Positions 1,494-25,295 of a stretch of DNA of 64,000 nucleotides are shown piece after piece (within the stretch, counting starts at the first letter, position 1; each line of letters begins with the position of its first letter). The stretch covers positions 3,460,001 through 3,524,000 of the forward strand of contig NZ_AP023439.1 of NCBI RefSeq assembly GCF_014701095.1. Direction: 5' to 3'. The notes under the pieces are model-generated. The model was given only the letters and a program-made list of their open reading frames with translations, ran no database searches and was not told where the DNA came from. The position numbers were made by a program, and so were the translations under genes. This stretch comes from Streptomyces tuirus. GTDB lineage: Bacteria > Actinomycetota > Actinomycetes > Streptomycetales > Streptomycetaceae.

Positions 1494-2377
1494 TAGGAGA
1501 GTGTCAGGTCCGACGTGATGGTTTCCCAGAGGGCGTTGAACCACTTCTGGGATTCCTTCACGAACGCCTCGTCCCGGCGGCCCGTGCGCTTCACGAAGGA
1601 GAACAGGAGGGACTGGGAGCCGAGGACGTCGTACATGTCCAGGGTCTGGCTGCCCCACTCCTCCTCGCGCCTGGTCAGCATGTAGTAGCCGATCAGGGCC
1701 TCCTCCTCGTTGAGGAGGTACAGCTTCACCGGCGGGGTGAACGGCAGCGCGCGGAAGGTGACGTGGACGTCGATGCCGTGCGTCGAGCGCAGCGCCTTCA
1801 GGTTGTGCTGGAGGACCTGCCCCTGGGCGTTGCGCATCGCCAGCCAGCGCTGGTGGACCGGGTTGTCGTCGCCGTGGGCCTCGACCGGGACCGGGAAGGC
1901 CAGCTCGATGTCCCGGGAGGGGACCAGGATGCGGACGTCGATCGACTCGGGACGGATGCGGCCCTCGTGGATCAGGCGCAGCGGCTCACCGATGGCGACC
2001 ATCAGCGTCTCCGCGGTGTGGCAGACCACGTCGACGCGTACGTGCGGCGCCGAGAAGGCCTCCGTCAGTCGGGGGGCGAGGCCCACCATCGTCGGCTGGG
2101 GCTCCCCCCGGACCGGCTCCGGGGCCGCGATCCGCGGTGGGCTGCCCTTGCTGACGTTGGTGAGGAGGCCGTCCTCCTGGAGGGCGCGCAGGGCCTGGCG
2201 GACGGCGCCGCGCTCCACGCCGAACTCCTCCGCGAGTTCGGCCTGGGTGGGCAGGCGATCCCCCGGCTTGAGCTCACCGGCCCGGATGCGTTGCCGCAGG
2301 ATGTCGGCGATCTCCTGGGGCGAGGGCCTTCTGCTGCCGTTCACTGCCACGTTCTCCGCCACGCTCTCCTGGGTCAC
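1493..2377 (-). CDS. devA: GntR-like developmental regulator DevA
   Basis: A regulator of about 294 residues. The N-terminal winged HTH (IADILRQRIRAGELKPGDRLPT, AELAEEFGVERGAVRQALRAL) is followed by a large C-terminal domain (VDVRILVPSRDIELAFPVPVE..., ALPFTPPVKLYLLN). That domain is shared almost unchanged with the protein at 2756-3661 but is not a standard FadR/HutC effector domain; it resembles a phospholipase-D-like regulatory fold. The open frame begins at a TTG (2383); GTG at 2377 is the first standard start, and GTGs further in cannot be excluded. Homologues in S. coelicolor (DevA) are required for normal aerial hyphae and sporulation. It overlaps devB and is divergent from the small membrane gene at 2531, with a palindromic operator between them. 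Confidence 0.85.
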   Translation of the reverse strand: MTQESVAENVAVNGSRRPSPQEIADILRQRIRAGELKPGDRLPTQAELAEEFGVERGAVRQALRALQEDGLLTNVSKGSPPRIAAPEPVRGEPQPTMVGLAPRLTEAFSAPHVRVDVVCHTAETLMVAIGEPLRLIHEGRIRPESIDVRILVPSRDIELAFPVPVEAHGDDNPVHQRWLAMRNAQGQVLQHNLKALRSTHGIDVHVTFRALPFTPPVKLYLLNEEEALIGYYMLTRREEEWGSQTLDMYDVLGSQSLLFSFVKRTGRRDEAFVKESQKWFNALWETITSDLTLS

Positions 2378-2462
2378 GACCAAACGCTACAACTCTGATC
2401 CATCTGGCGGGAGTTGTTTGGAAGTTGTTTATGACTAGGGGCCAAGTGGGGACAACTTAATC

Positions 2463-2481
2463 AGAGTTGGTTGCCAACTTC
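2463..2481. promoter_or_regulatory. Candidate DevA/DevE operator (inverted repeat)
   Basis: AGAGTTGGTTGCCAACTTC has arms GAGTTGG and CCAACTT(C) around a 3-bp centre. It lies 86 bp upstream of devA and 50 bp before the small membrane gene at 2531. The same 19-bp pattern recurs upstream of devE at 3744-3762. Further GAGTTG/GAAGTTG half-sites surround it between 2410 and 2500. Binding by DevA and/or DevE is inferred from the shared site and near-identical DNA-binding domains. Confidence 0.55.
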
Positions 2482-2530
2482 TCGGAGTTGGCGGAAGTTT
2501 TGCTTCCGGACTTCCGAAGGGGGAACACCG

Positions 2531-2719
2531 ATGCCCGCCCTCGCTCTCCTCTCCGCCGCCTTCGTCGTCGCCTTCGAACAGCTCGTCCAGTGGAAGTACG
2601 GTCCGGCCGGCCTCGTCGGCCTGATCCTGCTCACCGTGGGCGTCAAGGCCAAGAGCCCGGCCGTCAGCTCCGCGGGAGCGGTCGTGCTCGCGCTGCTGAT
2701 GACGGGGCCCGCCCGATGA
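2531..2719 (+). CDS. Small membrane protein (62 aa) next to devA/devE
   Basis: A 62-residue protein starting MPALALLSAAFVVAF, with a WKYGPAGLVGLILLTVGVK core and a second hydrophobic stretch VVLALLMTG; probably two membrane segments. AAGGGGG seven bases before the ATG is a good ribosome-binding site. It is a paralogue of the 60-residue protein at 533-715, and both sit divergent to a GntR gene. It is convergent with devE (36-bp gap) and divergent from devA, so the operator at 2463 probably controls it. Function unknown; coupling to the Dev regulators is inferred from the repeated arrangement. Confidence 0.75.
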   Translation: MPALALLSAAFVVAFEQLVQWKYGPAGLVGLILLTVGVKAKSPAVSSAGAVVLALLMTGPAR

Positions 2720-2755
2720 ACCACCGCACCGCCCCGGAACGACCCGTGGGAGACG

Positions 2756-3661
2756 TCAGATCGTGAGCACCAGCTCCGAACTGATCGTCTCCCACAGTGC
2801 GTTGAACCACAGATGTGACTGCTCCACGAACGTCGTGTCGCGCAGCCCGGCGCCCTGCTCGAAGGAGAACAGCATCGACCGGGTGCCCTGGGCGTCGTAC
2901 AACGCCGGCTGTTCGTGATCGGCCTCGGCCTCCCGGCGCGTCAGCGTGTAGTAGGCGAACAGCGCCTCCGTGCCGTTGAGCAGGTACAGCTTCACCGGCG
3001 GGGTGAAGGGCAGCGCCCGGAACGTCACGTGCACGTCGATGCCGTGGGTGGCGCGCAGGGCCAGCAGGTTGTGCTGGAGGACCTGCCCCTGGGCGTTGCG
3101 CATCGCCAGCCACCGCTCGTGCACCCAGTCGTCGCCGCCCCCCTCGACCGGCACCGGGAAGGCCAGGTCGATGTCCCGGCTGGGCAGCAGCACCCGGACG
3201 TCGACCTTGGCCGGTTTCAGCCGTCCGGCGTGGATCTGGCGCAGCGGCTCACCGATGGCGAGCGTGAGGGAGATGGACGTCAGGCACACGGCGTCGATCT
3301 CGACGTGCTCCGCGCCGAACGCCGCCGCTATCCGGGGGGCGAGGGCCACCGTCGTGGGCAGCGGAGGAGCCTCCGGGCCGGTCAGCGGCCCGACGGGGTC
3401 GGGGGCGACGGTCGCCGGACTGCCCTTGGACACGTTGGTGAGCAGCCGCTCGGACTGCAGGATGCGCAGCGCCTGCCGCACCGCCCCGCGCTCGACACCG
3501 AACTCGTGGGCCAGCTGGGCCTGGGTGGGCATGCGCGCACCCGGCCGCAGCGCCCCCGACCTGATCCGGGCACGCAGCTCCTCGGCCACCTCGTGATGTG
3601 TTCTCTGTGGCCGCTGCGACCTCTTCCGTCCAGTGACGGAGTCGTGTTCCGGGTCCACCAC
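2756..3661 (-). CDS. devE: GntR-like regulator DevE, paralogue of DevA
   Basis: About 301 residues, same architecture as DevA: winged HTH (LRARIRSGALRPGARMPT, QLAHEFGVERGAVRQALRIL) then the shared C-terminal domain, with long identical blocks such as RWLAMRNAQGQVLQHN and FRALPFTPPVKLYLLN. The frame opens at a TTG (3673); GTG at 3661 is preferred, with GTG 3658 possible. Its promoter region carries the perfect palindrome at 3744-3762. Identity with S. coelicolor devE is by recall and position (one small gene away from devA). Its distinct role is not evident from sequence. The near-identical recognition helices suggest that DevA and DevE can bind the same sites. Confidence 0.78.
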   Translation of the reverse strand: MVDPEHDSVTGRKRSQRPQRTHHEVAEELRARIRSGALRPGARMPTQAQLAHEFGVERGAVRQALRILQSERLLTNVSKGSPATVAPDPVGPLTGPEAPPLPTTVALAPRIAAAFGAEHVEIDAVCLTSISLTLAIGEPLRQIHAGRLKPAKVDVRVLLPSRDIDLAFPVPVEGGGDDWVHERWLAMRNAQGQVLQHNLLALRATHGIDVHVTFRALPFTPPVKLYLLNGTEALFAYYTLTRREAEADHEQPALYDAQGTRSMLFSFEQGAGLRDTTFVEQSHLWFNALWETISSELVLTI

Positions 3662-20995: not shown

Positions 20996-21733
20996 ATGAG
21001 CCCCGCAGACGGCGACCGTGACCCGCAGCGCATCCTGATCGTCGACGACGAGCCGGCCGTACGCGAAGCACTCCAGCGCAGCCTCGCGTTCGAGGGGTAC
21101 GGGACCGAGGTCGCCGTCGACGGCGCCGACGCGCTCGAGAAGGCGGCGACCTACCGGCCCGACCTGGTGGTCCTCGACATCCAGATGCCGCGCATGGACG
21201 GCCTGACGGCGGCGCGCCGCATCCGTGCCACGGGCGACACCACGCCGATCCTGATGCTCACGGCCCGCGACACGGTCGGCGACCGCGTCACCGGCCTCGA
21301 CGCGGGCGCCGACGACTACCTGGTCAAGCCGTTCGAACTCGACGAACTCTTCGCCCGCATCCGCGCGCTGCTGCGCCGCAGCTCCTACGCGGCGGCCGTG
21401 GGCGCGGCCGACCCGGCCGACGAGGACGCGCTCACCTTCGCCGACCTGCGCATGGACCTCGCGACACGGGAGGTCACGCGGGGCGGGCGCCCGGTGGAGC
21501 TGACCCGCACCGAGTTCACGCTCCTGGAGATGTTCATGGCACACCCGCGCCAGGTCCTCACCCGGGAGCAGATCCTCAAGGCCGTCTGGGGCTTCGACTT
21601 CGAGCCGTCGTCGAACTCCCTCGACGTGTACGTCATGTACCTGCGCCGCAAGACCGAGGCGGGCGGCGAACCGCGCCTCGTCCACACGGTCCGGGGCGTC
21701 GGATACGTGTTGCGGCAGGGCGGCGCGGAGTGA
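20996..21733 (+). CDS. OmpR-family response regulator (MprA/CutR-like)
   Basis: 245 residues: receiver domain with [14 protein letters not shown] acidic pocket, phosphoacceptor Asp in [13 protein letters not shown], Thr in MLTARD and Lys in [15 protein letters not shown] winged-helix output domain follows ([45 protein letters not shown]). The stop overlaps the kinase GTG by four bases. Together with the kinase and the upstream protease it resembles the mprA-mprB-pepD stress system, so envelope stress is a plausible input. Confidence 0.9.
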
Positions 21734-23202
21734 GTCCCCGCACGGTCGTACGGCGCTTCCGCTCCCTGCCGATCCGCTCCCGCCTTGCGCTGCTGGTGGC
21801 GGCGGCGGTGGCGTTCGCGGTGGCGGCGGTGTCGGTGACGTGCTGGTTCATCGTGCAGGGGAAGTTGTACGACGAGATCGACAACGACCTGAAGTCGTCG
21901 GTCGGGCCGCTGCGTCCGGACGACTTCCAGAGCCTCACGGACAACTGCCGCCAGACGCCGTCCGACACGCTGGGCATGGGGACCCGGCCCAAGAGCTACG
22001 GGCAGCTGGTCCGGGCCGACGGCAAGGTGTGCCTCTTCCCGAGTTCCACGGCCCAGGTACAGGTCCGCGGCGAGGACAAGGCCGTGGCCAAGGACCCCGT
22101 CCCGAACCAGGGCCAGATCCGCGACGGCACGGACAACGACGGCAACAAGCTCCGCGTCCTGGCCACGGCGGTCGTCATCAAGGACGGGCCCCTGACGCAG
22201 GGTGTGGCCGCGGACTACTCCCTCGTCGTCGCCCTGCCGCTCAAGGGAACCCAGTCCACGCTCAACGAGCTCGCCCTGATCCTCCTTCTCGTCTCCGGCG
22301 TCGGAGTGCTGGGTGCCGGAGCCGCCGGCCTGGCCGTCGCCCGGGCCGGGCTGCGCCCCGTGGACAAGCTGACCGAGGCCGTCGAGCACGTGGCCCGTAC
22401 GGAGGATCTGCACATCCGCATCCCCGTGGCGGACGACAGCGAGGACGAGATCGCCCGGCTGTCCCGGTCCTTCAACTCGATGACGTCGGCGCTGGCCAGC
22501 TCCCAGGAGCTGCAACAGCAACTGATCGCGGACGCCGGCCATGAACTCCGCACGCCGCTCACGTCCCTGCGCACCAACATCGAACTCCTCACCCGCAGCG
22601 AGGAAACGGGCCGCCCCATCCCCGAGGCGGACCGCAAGGCGCTGCTCGCGTCGGTGAAGGCGCAGATGACGGAACTGGCCGCGCTCATCGGCGACCTCCA
22701 GGAGCTGTCCCGCCCGGACACGGGCCAGCACGCGGGCCGGACACAGATCGTCGCCTGGCACGACACGGTCGAGTCGGCGCTGCGGCGGGCCCGGCTGCGG
22801 GGCCCGGAGCTCACGATCACGGCGGACGTCCAGCCGTGGTTCGTCCGGGCGGAACCCTCCGCCCTGGAACGGGCGGTGGTCAACATCCTCGACAACGCGG
22901 TGAAGTTCAGCCCGGCGGGCGGCACGATCGAGGTCTGCCTGGCCTCGGGCACCCTCACGGTCCGCGACCACGGCCCGGGCATCCTCGCCGACGAACTCCC
23001 CCACGTCTTCGACCGCTTCTGGCGCTCCCCGAGCGCACGCGCACTGCCGGGCTCGGGCCTGGGCCTGTCGATCGTGGCGCGTACGGTGCAGCAGGCCGGG
23101 GGCGAGGTCTCCTTGTCCCGGGCGGAGAACGGCGGCACGGTGGCGACAGTACGACTGCCCGGGGCGGCGGTCCCCCCACCGGAGGATCTGCCCCTTCCCT
23201 GA
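21730..23202 (+). CDS. Sensor histidine kinase paired with the regulator at 20996
   Basis: 490 residues: membrane helix 1 ([20 protein letters not shown]), an extracytoplasmic sensor of about 150 residues with two Cys (DNC, KVC), membrane helix 2 ([20 protein letters not shown]), HAMP, then HisKA with [15 protein letters not shown] (phospho-His) and an HATPase with N box [12 protein letters not shown]1 RDHGPGI and G2 GSGLGLSIV. The GTG start overlaps the regulator stop. Layout is that of MprB/CutS-type kinases. The ligand is unknown. Confidence 0.9.
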
Positions 23203-23241
23203 GGTAGGTCAGGACTGGATCGACCACCCCCCGTCGAAGGA

Positions 23242-23914
23242 AACTGTCGGGGCCGCCCGCTTCTTTGGCAGTGCCGTGCTTCCACGGCCTGCATCAAGGG
23301 CGCTTCGCGTCGCCTTCGGCGATCGGCCTGCGGCCGACCCTTGACCCAGGCCGTTCCAGCACGGGAGAGAAGCGAGCGAGCGGCCCGAAGAGCGGGTGGC
23401 CAGGGCAGACGCCCCACCGGTCGCCTTTCCGGCCGCTCGGCGACGTAGGGCGCATCGGGCAGGGGGCGGCACGCCGGGCGGTCTCAGCGGCTTGCGGTGG
23501 GGTGGGGTGGTCAGCCGGCCACTCGGGAGGGGCAGCGCAAGGAACTGGAGCGTTTGCGCCACGCCTGCCCCTGCCTGCCAGGGCCCATGCACTCCCCACT
23601 GGTCCGAAACGCTCCACTCACCACCTCAACCCCCCTCCCAGCGCCCACCCACCCACCGATCGCCGCTTAGCCCACCTGGCGTGCGGGCGAGGCGCGGTCG
23701 CGCACGTGGACGCCGCTGAGCGAGGCAACGGGCCGAAGATCGCAGGCAGGCTCGGCCACCCGCCTTTCCGGGCCGCTCGCTCGCTTCTCTCCCGTGCTGG
23801 AACGGCCTGGGTCAAGGGTGGCCCGCAGGGCCATCGCCTAAGGCGACGCGAAGCGCCCTTGAGGCAGGCCGTGGAAGCACGACACTGCCAAAGAAGCGGG
23901 CGGCCCCGACAGTT
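23242..23914. repeat. 673-bp element with ~161-bp inverted-repeat ends (MITE-like)
   Basis: The left arm (23242-23402) and the right arm (23753-23914, read on the other strand) match almost base for base. Shared blocks include CTGTCGGGGCCGCCCGCTTC, CAAGGGCGCTTCGCGTCGCC and GGGAGAGAAGCGAGCGAGCG. The 350-bp centre is C-rich, and I find no transposase or credible gene in it. It looks like a non-autonomous mobile or palindromic repeat. The right end touches a decapitated DUF397 coding remnant, which suggests that insertion or recombination occurred here. Confidence 0.85.
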
Positions 23915-24083
23915 ACTTCTTGACGTACGTTACGAAGGACGCCCAGGCGCCCGACCCGAACACGAGCACGGGACCATCCGACCGCTTGCTGTCTCGAACG
24001 GGGACTGTGCCGGGGCAGTTGTCGGCGACCTCTGCACAGTTGTTGGCTCCCCCGTCGCTGTAGCTCGACTTGCGCCCTGACCG
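23913..24083 (-). pseudogene. DUF397 protein remnant lacking its N-terminus
   Basis: The frame reads RKSSYSDGGANNC, then EVADNCPGTVPVRDSKR and VLVFGSGAWASFVTYVKK followed by TAA: a complete DUF397 domain. The codons before it (CGG TCA GGG CGC) run straight back into the TGA of the upstream DUF2993 gene with no ATG, GTG or TTG. The normal start and first ~10 residues are therefore missing. DUF397 proteins are usually paired with an XRE-family HTH partner, which is absent here. The stop codon falls exactly at the outer end of the inverted-repeat element. Confidence 0.75.
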
Positions 24084-25295
24084 TCACCGCCCCACCGTCA
24101 GCCCCGATCCCGACACCCGCACACGGATGCCGTCCTCCTCCACCCGTACCTCCTGCAACCGCACGTCTCCCTGGTCCGGTTCGGGCAGTTCGAACGCCAG
24201 GGACAGTCGGTCGGCCAGGGCCGGGCGGGTCAGGTCCGACAGGGAGTCGAGCAGGTTGGGGTCCAGGCCCAGGCGGCGCATGACCTCGGGGTTCTCCAGG
24301 GCCAGGTCGATGAGGTTGAGGCCGGCGGCCTGGCGGGCGAAGCGCGGGGAGCCGGTCAGCTCGGCGAGTTTGCCGTCGTCGGCCAGGGCCTCGCGCACGG
24401 TCGCCTCGGGCACGCCCATCCGCCGCACGATGGCCGGGACCGACAGCAGCGCCTTGGCCTTGCGGGTCTCCCGGGCGAGGTCGGCGGTGCCCTTGGCCGT
24501 CAGATGCAGGCCCTCCGAGGCGCGGGTGCCGGGGCGGTAGGTGGCCAGGTCGCCGATGTCCAGGCGCATCTTGCCGATCTCCGTGGCGATGCCCCGCTCC
24601 CCCTGCCGCTGGATCCGGGCCTCGGCGCGCAGCCGGAGGTTGTGCCCGGCGACCGGCAGGGTGCCGTTCGCCCGGACCCGGTCGCGGCCCTCGCCGGTGA
24701 ACGTCACCTGGGAGGCGCCGAGTTCGCGGTTGAGGTCGGCGAAGGTGAGCTGGACGTCCCCGTCGAAGCGGGGGACGTGGGCGCCGCGCACGGAGGTGAG
24801 GCCGTCGGCGTTCAGCGTCACGTCGTGGGCCGTGGCCGACACCTTGGCCAGGGAGACCCGGTCGGCGGCGACGTCCGGGACGGTCACCTTCACCGAGTCC
24901 AGCCGCTTGTCGGCGAGTTGGGTGAGGAAGGGGAAGCCGCCGATCTCCACCTCGGGCGCCGCGGCCAGGCCGAGGCGGTCCTTGAGGGTGTCGGCGGCCC
25001 GGTGCTCGGCGTACAGCACGGCCCAGCGGTCGCCGAGGGCGGCGAACGAGGCGAGGACGGCCAGGCCGACCACCGCCTTCACCGCGAGCGGCAAGCCAGC
25101 GAAACGATTCTTCCTGCGCCGCTTGCCGCCGCGGCGGTGGTCCGGCGGGGCCCAGGCGTCCTCGGCGCCCGCATCGCGTTCCTCCGTGAGGAACTCCTCC
25201 AGAGGGGTCTCCTCCAGAGGCCCGTCATCGAGGGCGGCGAGCTCCTCGTACGGGTTCGGTCGGGGATGCGCATCTAGGTGGTGGGGGGTACGCAT
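24084..25295 (-). CDS. Long DUF2993 (LmeA-like) membrane protein
   Basis: 403 residues. The acidic N-terminal cytoplasmic region (1-52) precedes a basic stop-transfer cluster GGKRRRKNRF, a membrane helix (VKAVVGLAVLASFAALGDRW) and an extracytoplasmic DUF2993 domain (GGFPFLTQLADKRLDSVKVT, VRVSGSGLTVGR at the end). The IGGFPFLTQLADKRLDSVKV block mirrors IKGFPFLTQVAGGSLDDIEV of the shorter protein at 14281-15018. Family function is linked to envelope lipids or glycans in mycobacteria; here unknown. Confidence 0.8.
   Translation of the reverse strand: MRTPHHLDAHPRPNPYEELAALDDGPLEETPLEEFLTEERDAGAEDAWAPPDHRRGGKRRRKNRFAGLPLAVKAVVGLAVLASFAALGDRWAVLYAEHRAADTLKDRLGLAAAPEVEIGGFPFLTQLADKRLDSVKVTVPDVAADRVSLAKVSATAHDVTLNADGLTSVRGAHVPRFDGDVQLTFADLNRELGASQVTFTGEGRDRVRANGTLPVAGHNLRLRAEARIQRQGERGIATEIGKMRLDIGDLATYRPGTRASEGLHLTAKGTADLARETRKAKALLSVPAIVRRMGVPEATVREALADDGKLAELTGSPRFARQAAGLNLIDLALENPEVMRRLGLDPNLLDSLSDLTRPALADRLSLAFELPEPDQGDVRLQEVRVEEDGIRVRVSGSGLTVGR

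Follow-up and report, generated by a model that had tools for sequence, protein, structure and literature searches.

MITEs are small, non-coding elements with inverted ends that lie dispersed in intergenic DNA. In mobile insertion cassettes, of the MIC231 type, the ends of an IS enclose passenger genes but no transposase. REP/BIME systems are built from palindromic units of 20–40 nt, and in integrons the attC recombination site folds as single-stranded DNA, the cargo consisting of diverse small enzymes and regulators. PMC2266710 lists MIC231 among its references and describes IS4-family elements as having short terminal repeats and generating target duplications. For the Tap-bound palindromes of Streptomyces telomeres, PMC4513846 describes GCA loops with sheared G.A closing pairs. 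In the 64,000-nt stretch of Streptomyces tuirus DNA analyzed here (the window; contig NZ_AP023439.1, positions 3,460,001 to 3,524,000 of the forward strand), two long inverted arms flank a short interior. With a probability of about 0.55, we read this locus as a small copy, empty of cargo, of a mobile cassette that has hairpin ends and is non-autonomous, and all movement of which we infer from sequence. The element itself is widespread, structured, paired and dispersed, and encloses genes in some relatives. It was not found described in the open-licence PMC literature, which is weak evidence of absence from print.

The Streptomyces tuirus locus and its counterparts

An inverted-repeat search places the arms at 23242–23392 and 23764–23914, both of 151 nt, 94% complementary and separated by a gap of 371 nt, and blast lengthens the arm-to-arm alignment to 161 nt at 93.8% identity (Table 1), in agreement with the long, nearly identical inverted ends described in the first-pass annotation. 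The C-rich centre without transposase noted there is likewise found: the interior has a composition of A.14, C.39, G.36 and T.11, its ORFs lack Streptomyces-type codon bias, and transposase is absent from it. This centre is not unique DNA, as the inverted pair of sub-terminal boxes that it contains is also found next to arms in other genomes, where the boxes recur in arrays at ~75–93 bp spacing; several interiors elsewhere are inverted arrays of this ~75–93 bp box, of which the window element has one per side. The genes for the kinase and the LmeA-like protein converge on the element, and the DUF397 fragment is probably host sequence outside it. An Rfam scan of 22800–24400 returns a sole, sub-threshold match (mir-6511, E 0.2).

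Table 1. Features of the window element and its surroundings (window coordinates).
Feature	Position	Strand	Remarks
Sensor histidine kinase gene (HAMP, HisKA, HATPase_c)	21730..23202	+	3' end toward left arm
Left arm, ~150-nt palindromic cloverleaf	23242..23394	-	Outer end 23242; covariance model hits 23250-23388 on minus strand
Interior, 369 nt, C- and G-rich	23395..23763	.	Without convincing gene
Left sub-terminal box (GGCACGCCGGG...AGCGGCTTGCGG type)	23468..23503	-	Single copy; limits set by eye
Right sub-terminal box, inverted copy of left box	23653..23702	+	Limits set by eye
Right arm, ~150-nt palindromic cloverleaf	23764..23914	+	Outer end 23914 on DUF397 stop codon; covariance model hits 23768-23906 on plus strand
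DUF397 gene fragment, 5'-truncated	23913..24075	-	Pfam match 23919-24074, positions 4-55 of 55; TAA stop at right arm outer end
LmeA-like gene	24084..25295	-	3' end toward right arm, past DUF397 fragment

A search of the S. tuirus genome for arms, in line with the copy count proposed at first pass, finds the two arms described here and one solo arm at 2,750,541. None of 80 loci from relatives, found via the kinase, carries an arm by blast, although two of them say little, L166 stopping before the kinase stop and L115 ending 88 nt past it. Since arms are not found at this site in the relatives and are present elsewhere, the situation that had been put forward as arguing against mobility, an element at the same site in all relatives and nowhere else, is not the one found. 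In eight of the loci the kinase and DUF397 3' ends lie no more than about 55 nt apart with no arm in between: the ends overlap in L107, L109, L111 and L131, a partial match overlaps in L115, and the DUF397 match begins 37–54 nt off in L112, L136 and L161, the calls for L115, L136 and L161 being based on nucleotide matches only. The 3' flank of the kinase varies in type among relatives. S. violaceus (L110) retains an arm remnant of about 35 nt at this site, and the element would thus have arrived beside DUF397 before the split of S. violaceus and S. tuirus. The kinase–DUF397 gap of S. violaceus (L110:5440-6300) also holds two small genes, toxin-antitoxin-like by eye, beside the remnant.

A base-exact empty site was obtained neither here nor at groEL or thiG. 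A partial arm is present in G126, the closest relative identified for the groEL site. Among 29 fetched thiG loci, both arms are present in L282, matches of 46–48 nt that the arm-model search does not report occur in L280 and L281, and 26 loci have none; the thiG junction is not exactly readable, partly because inverted similarity extends beyond the arms in L258.

Fold and strand of the arm

A single window arm is an imperfect palindrome of ~150 nt with three mini-hairpins at its tip. Its predicted fold, calculated with RNA parameters, has an energy of -84.6 kcal/mol (z -4.6), and 0 of 200 shuffles are equally stable. A covariance model of 139 positions and 43 pairs was built from 29 arms and used to align 109, of which 105 are distinct. 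Across these 105 arms, 97.8% of the 4515 pair cells are standard, 253 cells carry double-sided changes (68 ± 11 in shuffles), and 16 pairs vary on both sides, while pairing falls to 39–47% when partner columns are slid by 1–3. One of the five covariation measures is weak, with 41 further pair types against 37.2 in shuffles, a value reached by 10 of 500. Because this alignment was fitted to the structure, its figures lean toward the structure; in an unfitted alignment (A1), 14 of the 43 pairs show double changes. What is conserved is the cloverleaf within each arm and not the pairing of one arm with the other, which makes the very large cruciform envisaged at first pass a less apt description.

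The non-Watson-Crick cells of the 105 arms are distributed unevenly on the outward-reading strand (G.T 221, A.C 21, others 78), and since G.T and A.C trade places on the opposite strand, the outward strand is the constrained one. The first tip loop is GNA in all 105 distinct arms, the second is GNA in 94, GNNA in nine and different in two, one of these being the right window arm (TAA), and the third is GNA where short and expanded in many arms. An internal loop places GGA opposite GGA (99 and 103 of 105 arms). DNA forms GNA loops of unusual stability, and GGA/GGA is a DNA zipper motif. The G.T excess on the outward strand, the two motifs and the likeness to telomeres favor an arm that acts as folded single-stranded DNA, in the form of its 3'-outward strand; an RNA read outward would fit the covariation too.

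Dispersal, cargo and genomic position

The arm model finds matches in 71 of 199 Streptomyces genomes (E 1e-3), and across the class in 57 of 394 genomes and 16 of 137 genera (E 1e-4); the numbers of arms in these surveys are lower bounds, given that at most 16 candidates per genome were scored in the first and at most eight in the second. Whole-element DNA matches occur in 18 of 61 genomes, and outside Streptomyces the structural-model matches are weaker, up to 69 bits, part of which may be convergent. Arms that neighbor each other at less than 4 kb are almost without exception back to back: in 14 genomes, 72 of 73 such neighbors are in (-,+) order (41 of 42 in eight genomes, 31 of 31 in the other six), one is (+,+) and none is (+,-) or (-,-), with spacings within pairs of 0.4–3.7 kb. 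Genome G092 has 15 arms forming seven pairs and one solo, and G125 has 18, as seven pairs and four others. Solo arms are common among genomes with listed arms, and to this extent the proposal that the locus is a remnant of two opposed repeats has something to it. Movement is suggested by G092, where the element at L092 recurs reversed at L097 over 1,529 bp at 97.4% identity between flanks without similarity, all four ends of the homology falling at the CAC of CCCAAC(GT/GG/CC)(T/G)CAC; these copies probably reflect a recent event. Several arms also occupy one site in two or more species, and many copies are therefore old and vertically kept. A restriction to the central chromosome, suggested by G092 (0.31–0.56 of the chromosome) and G125, is contradicted by G339, whose ~7.8 Mb carry copies at 0.77 and 7.64 Mb. 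Two loci of G006 (L272 and L273) represent a subfamily with long symmetric interiors, free of gene calls and containing by eye further large hairpins.

The DNA between the arms ranges from non-coding to gene-bearing. Gene calls, for neighbors and cargo alike, come from a codon-position heuristic that misses short genes and in some cases overlaps the arms (distances to -492). Among the 33 pairs of the nearer group, which take in L232, truncated in its second arm where the contig stops, and L234, with "arms" 44 nt apart, a gene call lies inside four. In this group, L086 and L041 give HIT and bPH_6 matches below the Pfam cut-offs (17.2 bits against 21.5, and 16.9 against 22), L103 holds NUDIX and Aminoglyc_resit, the latter at 29.9 bits (cut-off 21), and L089 carries an IS256-type (Mutator) transposase gene within the element (2321-3559, minus). 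The window element and 29 of the 33 nearer pairs have terminal inverted repeats without a called gene between them, which is not the case for 12 of 20 pairs from distant subfamilies. These 20 were hand-picked from the listed arms, and nine come from one genome: genes are called in 9 of 9 pairs of G197, 2 of 2 of G078, 1 of 3 of G158, and 0 of 6 from G062, G006, G208 and G071. Their cargo includes GDSL/GGACT, GntR-UTRA (twice), HAD (twice), CYTH, GNAT, NmrA, AraC/GyrI, SnoaL, aldo-keto reductase, TetR, NsdA-family regulators (twice) and, in L256, an NF041680 transposase. The latter gene and the IS256-type gene of L089 look like separate insertions and not like the elements' own transposases. 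Because genes are so few in the nearer pairs, one being the IS256-type transposase while HIT and bPH_6 stay below cut-off, the term cassette rests mainly on the picked distant subfamilies.

At one clean orthologous site in two species, L262 and L268, the cargo differs: flanks and arms align over ~1.1 kb per side at 73–75%, and the interiors, with NmrA in one and SnoaL in the other, share no match at E 1e-3. For L264 and L269, right-flank similarity is 87% and the interiors again have nothing in common; the case is weaker, as in L269 flank and arm are separated by an additional ~300 and ~400 nt. The comparison of L258, which holds genes, with L282 (695 nt compared) was rejected as a cargo difference, one 49-nt interior stretch being common to both, twice. 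A recurrent protein of ~84 residues is present in five of the nine fetched G197 elements (L257, L258, L260, L261 and L263); NCBIfam gives no match for any of the five, and Pfam none for the two searched against it.

The arms lie preferentially past the ends of genes. Among 96 arms, 65 face the 3' end and 25 the 5' end of the neighboring gene (p = 3e-5; the six arms without a called neighbor are left out of this ratio, and orthologous sites are counted separately), with a median distance of 47 nt from 3' end to arm core. DUF397 and HATPase_c_2 are each found in five and DUF5753 in two of the 80 neighbors scanned, out of 86 called proteins; these three are components of whiJ-like clusters. The remaining families, among the 25 of 86 families listed, are varied. 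Such positions, together with the very stable fold and the retention of arms at the same site in several species, would be expected of a bidirectional terminator or insulator, that is, a structured intergenic element selected at convergent 3' ends and occasionally copied without being mobile. This reading is nonetheless unlikely, since the strand of a read-through transcript is not the conserved one, and the 221 wobble cells would turn into A.C mismatches on it. Moreover, a terminator has no need for 97.4% identical copies at unrelated sites, for cargo genes or for strict back-to-back order, and at the groEL site of G205 a terminator-like hairpin, as judged by eye, is retained next to the arm.

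The target-site duplications whose search was proposed at first pass were sought in 27 pairs and not found (mean longest match 3.37 nt, against 3.38 in shuffled pairs), the lone candidate being one of 11 nt at L033. The flanks beyond the arms do show inverted similarity, with a mean of 0.486 over 24 nt in 29 pairs against 0.409 ± 0.015 when permuted (0 of 2000), although the permutation was run across genomes, a design in which part of the excess could also come from a preference for similar targets. The signal is driven by L223 (0.96), L088 (0.88), L034 and L099 (0.79 each), and L222 and L221 (0.71 each), and includes gene tails; the mean without L034, L088 and L099 is 0.447, and the window pair itself has 0.33. 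This suggests that inverted copying, or a symmetric target, is involved in some copies. If every pair arose in this manner, an arm would stall replication and a template switch would copy arm and flank in reverse, such that pairs form in place, which is in line with the frequent solo arms and with similarity that reaches gene tails. As a general explanation this is hard to credit, given the low values above, and it leaves unexplained the sharply bounded 1,529-bp copy at a new site, the differing cargo at one site and the lack of face-to-face arms.

Plasmids, candidate enzymes and likeness to known systems

Occurrences of the element on plasmids are leads to the moving enzyme, not proof of it. 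The linear plasmid NZ_CP109028.1 (132,838 bp) carries a half-element of box plus arm at each end (L237:539-683 and L236:543-700; arm-model scores 153 and 125 bits), inside its terminal inverted repeats and about 540–700 nt from the ends, which are 81.6% alike over 800 nt; the outer end of the arm points inward and the box side toward the telomere. Two Micromonospora plasmids typed MOBP contain the cloverleaf core (L238:3001-3068 and L239:3001-3067; 51 and 50 bits) ~210 bp upstream of two successive genes, the first annotated as MobC in L239 and the second as relaxase in L238, where it is possibly an oriT structure. From these cases it could be argued that the cloverleaf belongs to plasmids, as an oriT or a telomere-associated structure, and that the chromosomal copies are debris or mimics. 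We consider this improbable, as the window's arm has matches in only 5 of 72,556 plasmid records (two more match other arms) and in 0 of 50,697 phage records, most listed copies lie on chromosomes at a distance from the ends, and the Micromonospora match is mainly to the core and could be convergent. In a narrow test with one exact 33-letter pattern, viral contigs gave no match either. Short arm-like matches are also seen on two large Streptomyces plasmids (NZ_CP108294.1:334152-334224, ~4 kb from the record end, and NZ_CP108163.1:168603-168686).

A plausible transposase of its own was not detected in any element, and no parent transposon was found among the families tested, Y1_Tnp and NF041680. 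Y1_Tnp (RAYT) is disfavored as a partner, being present in 17 of the 40 strong-arm genomes (best arm E below 1e-15 in the 199-genome survey) and in 50 of the 159 others (Fisher p 0.20), and absent from the arm-rich G026, G205 and G177 (9–10 arm matches each at E 1e-8). The NF041680 transposase is likewise disfavored: 4 of 16 genomes lack a match to it, and only one of its 30 loci is flanked by arms.

In the model that we propose, the outward-3' strand of each arm would fold as single-stranded DNA, and a candidate enzyme supplied in trans would recognize the GNA-loop cloverleaf and move or copy the unit, landing preferentially just past gene stop codons. Where two cassettes have near-identical arms, these could serve as substrates of homologous recombination that swaps the cargo, and inverted copying via the hairpin would keep the arms alike, at times taking along a little host flank. 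A more far-reaching version is that these elements represent a categorically new class of bacterial mobile element, in which cassettes delimited by two outward single-stranded DNA cloverleafs, combining GNA loops and a zipper of GGA/GGA, are docking sites for cargo exchange, moved by an unrecognized enzyme that is possibly related to the machinery of telomeres or plasmid transfer; we put this forward as a tentative and rather doubtful idea. Streptomyces is the main source of natural antibiotics, and if the model is true, the genus would possess a system, overlooked so far, by which single genes are placed and exchanged at safe positions past stop codons, the cassette ends being composed of motifs characteristic of folded DNA. 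For following this up, the arm provides a search model, L262/L268 an orthologous site with different cargo, and the folded outward strand may serve as bait for the missing enzyme.

In comparison with known systems, the element shares with MITEs its small size, inverted ends, dispersal and intergenic position and, in the window copy and most nearer pairs, the lack of a called gene. The first-pass suggestion of a Streptomyces MITE is sustained as to MITE-like mobility, the arms being dispersed without a transposase here, but not as to the class itself: target duplication and parent transposon are missing from what was found, the ends are internally palindromic, and some relatives hold genes between the arms. 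REP/BIME systems, associated with the RAYT (Y1) transposase, have in common with it palindromic units, inverted pairs and a location at gene 3' ends. The unit described here is several times longer, however, with a three-hairpin tip and its own wide spacing, and several arm-rich genomes have no Y1_Tnp. The element fails such tests of MITE and REP membership as were feasible. The telomere hairpins of Streptomyces (Tap/Tpg), as described in PMC4513846, resemble the arm in their GCA-type triloops, sheared G.A pairing and 3'-outward strand, a likeness at the level of described motifs, whereas most listed arm copies are internal on chromosomes. Integron cassettes share the single-strand-folding site and a cargo of diverse small enzymes and regulators, but here the cargo lies between two inverted arms and not beside one attC, the copies are scattered and form no array, and no integrase is linked to them. 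Mobile insertion cassettes carry genes between inverted ends, lack their own transposase and are dispersed, as do 12 of the 20 distant pairs in enclosing a called gene, one of them (L256) together with a transposase gene, although the window's own copy is without a gene. They differ in their ends, which in the present element are ~150-nt folded palindromes with no duplication found and no parent IS known, and the element would resemble a mobile insertion cassette in its working without necessarily being one.
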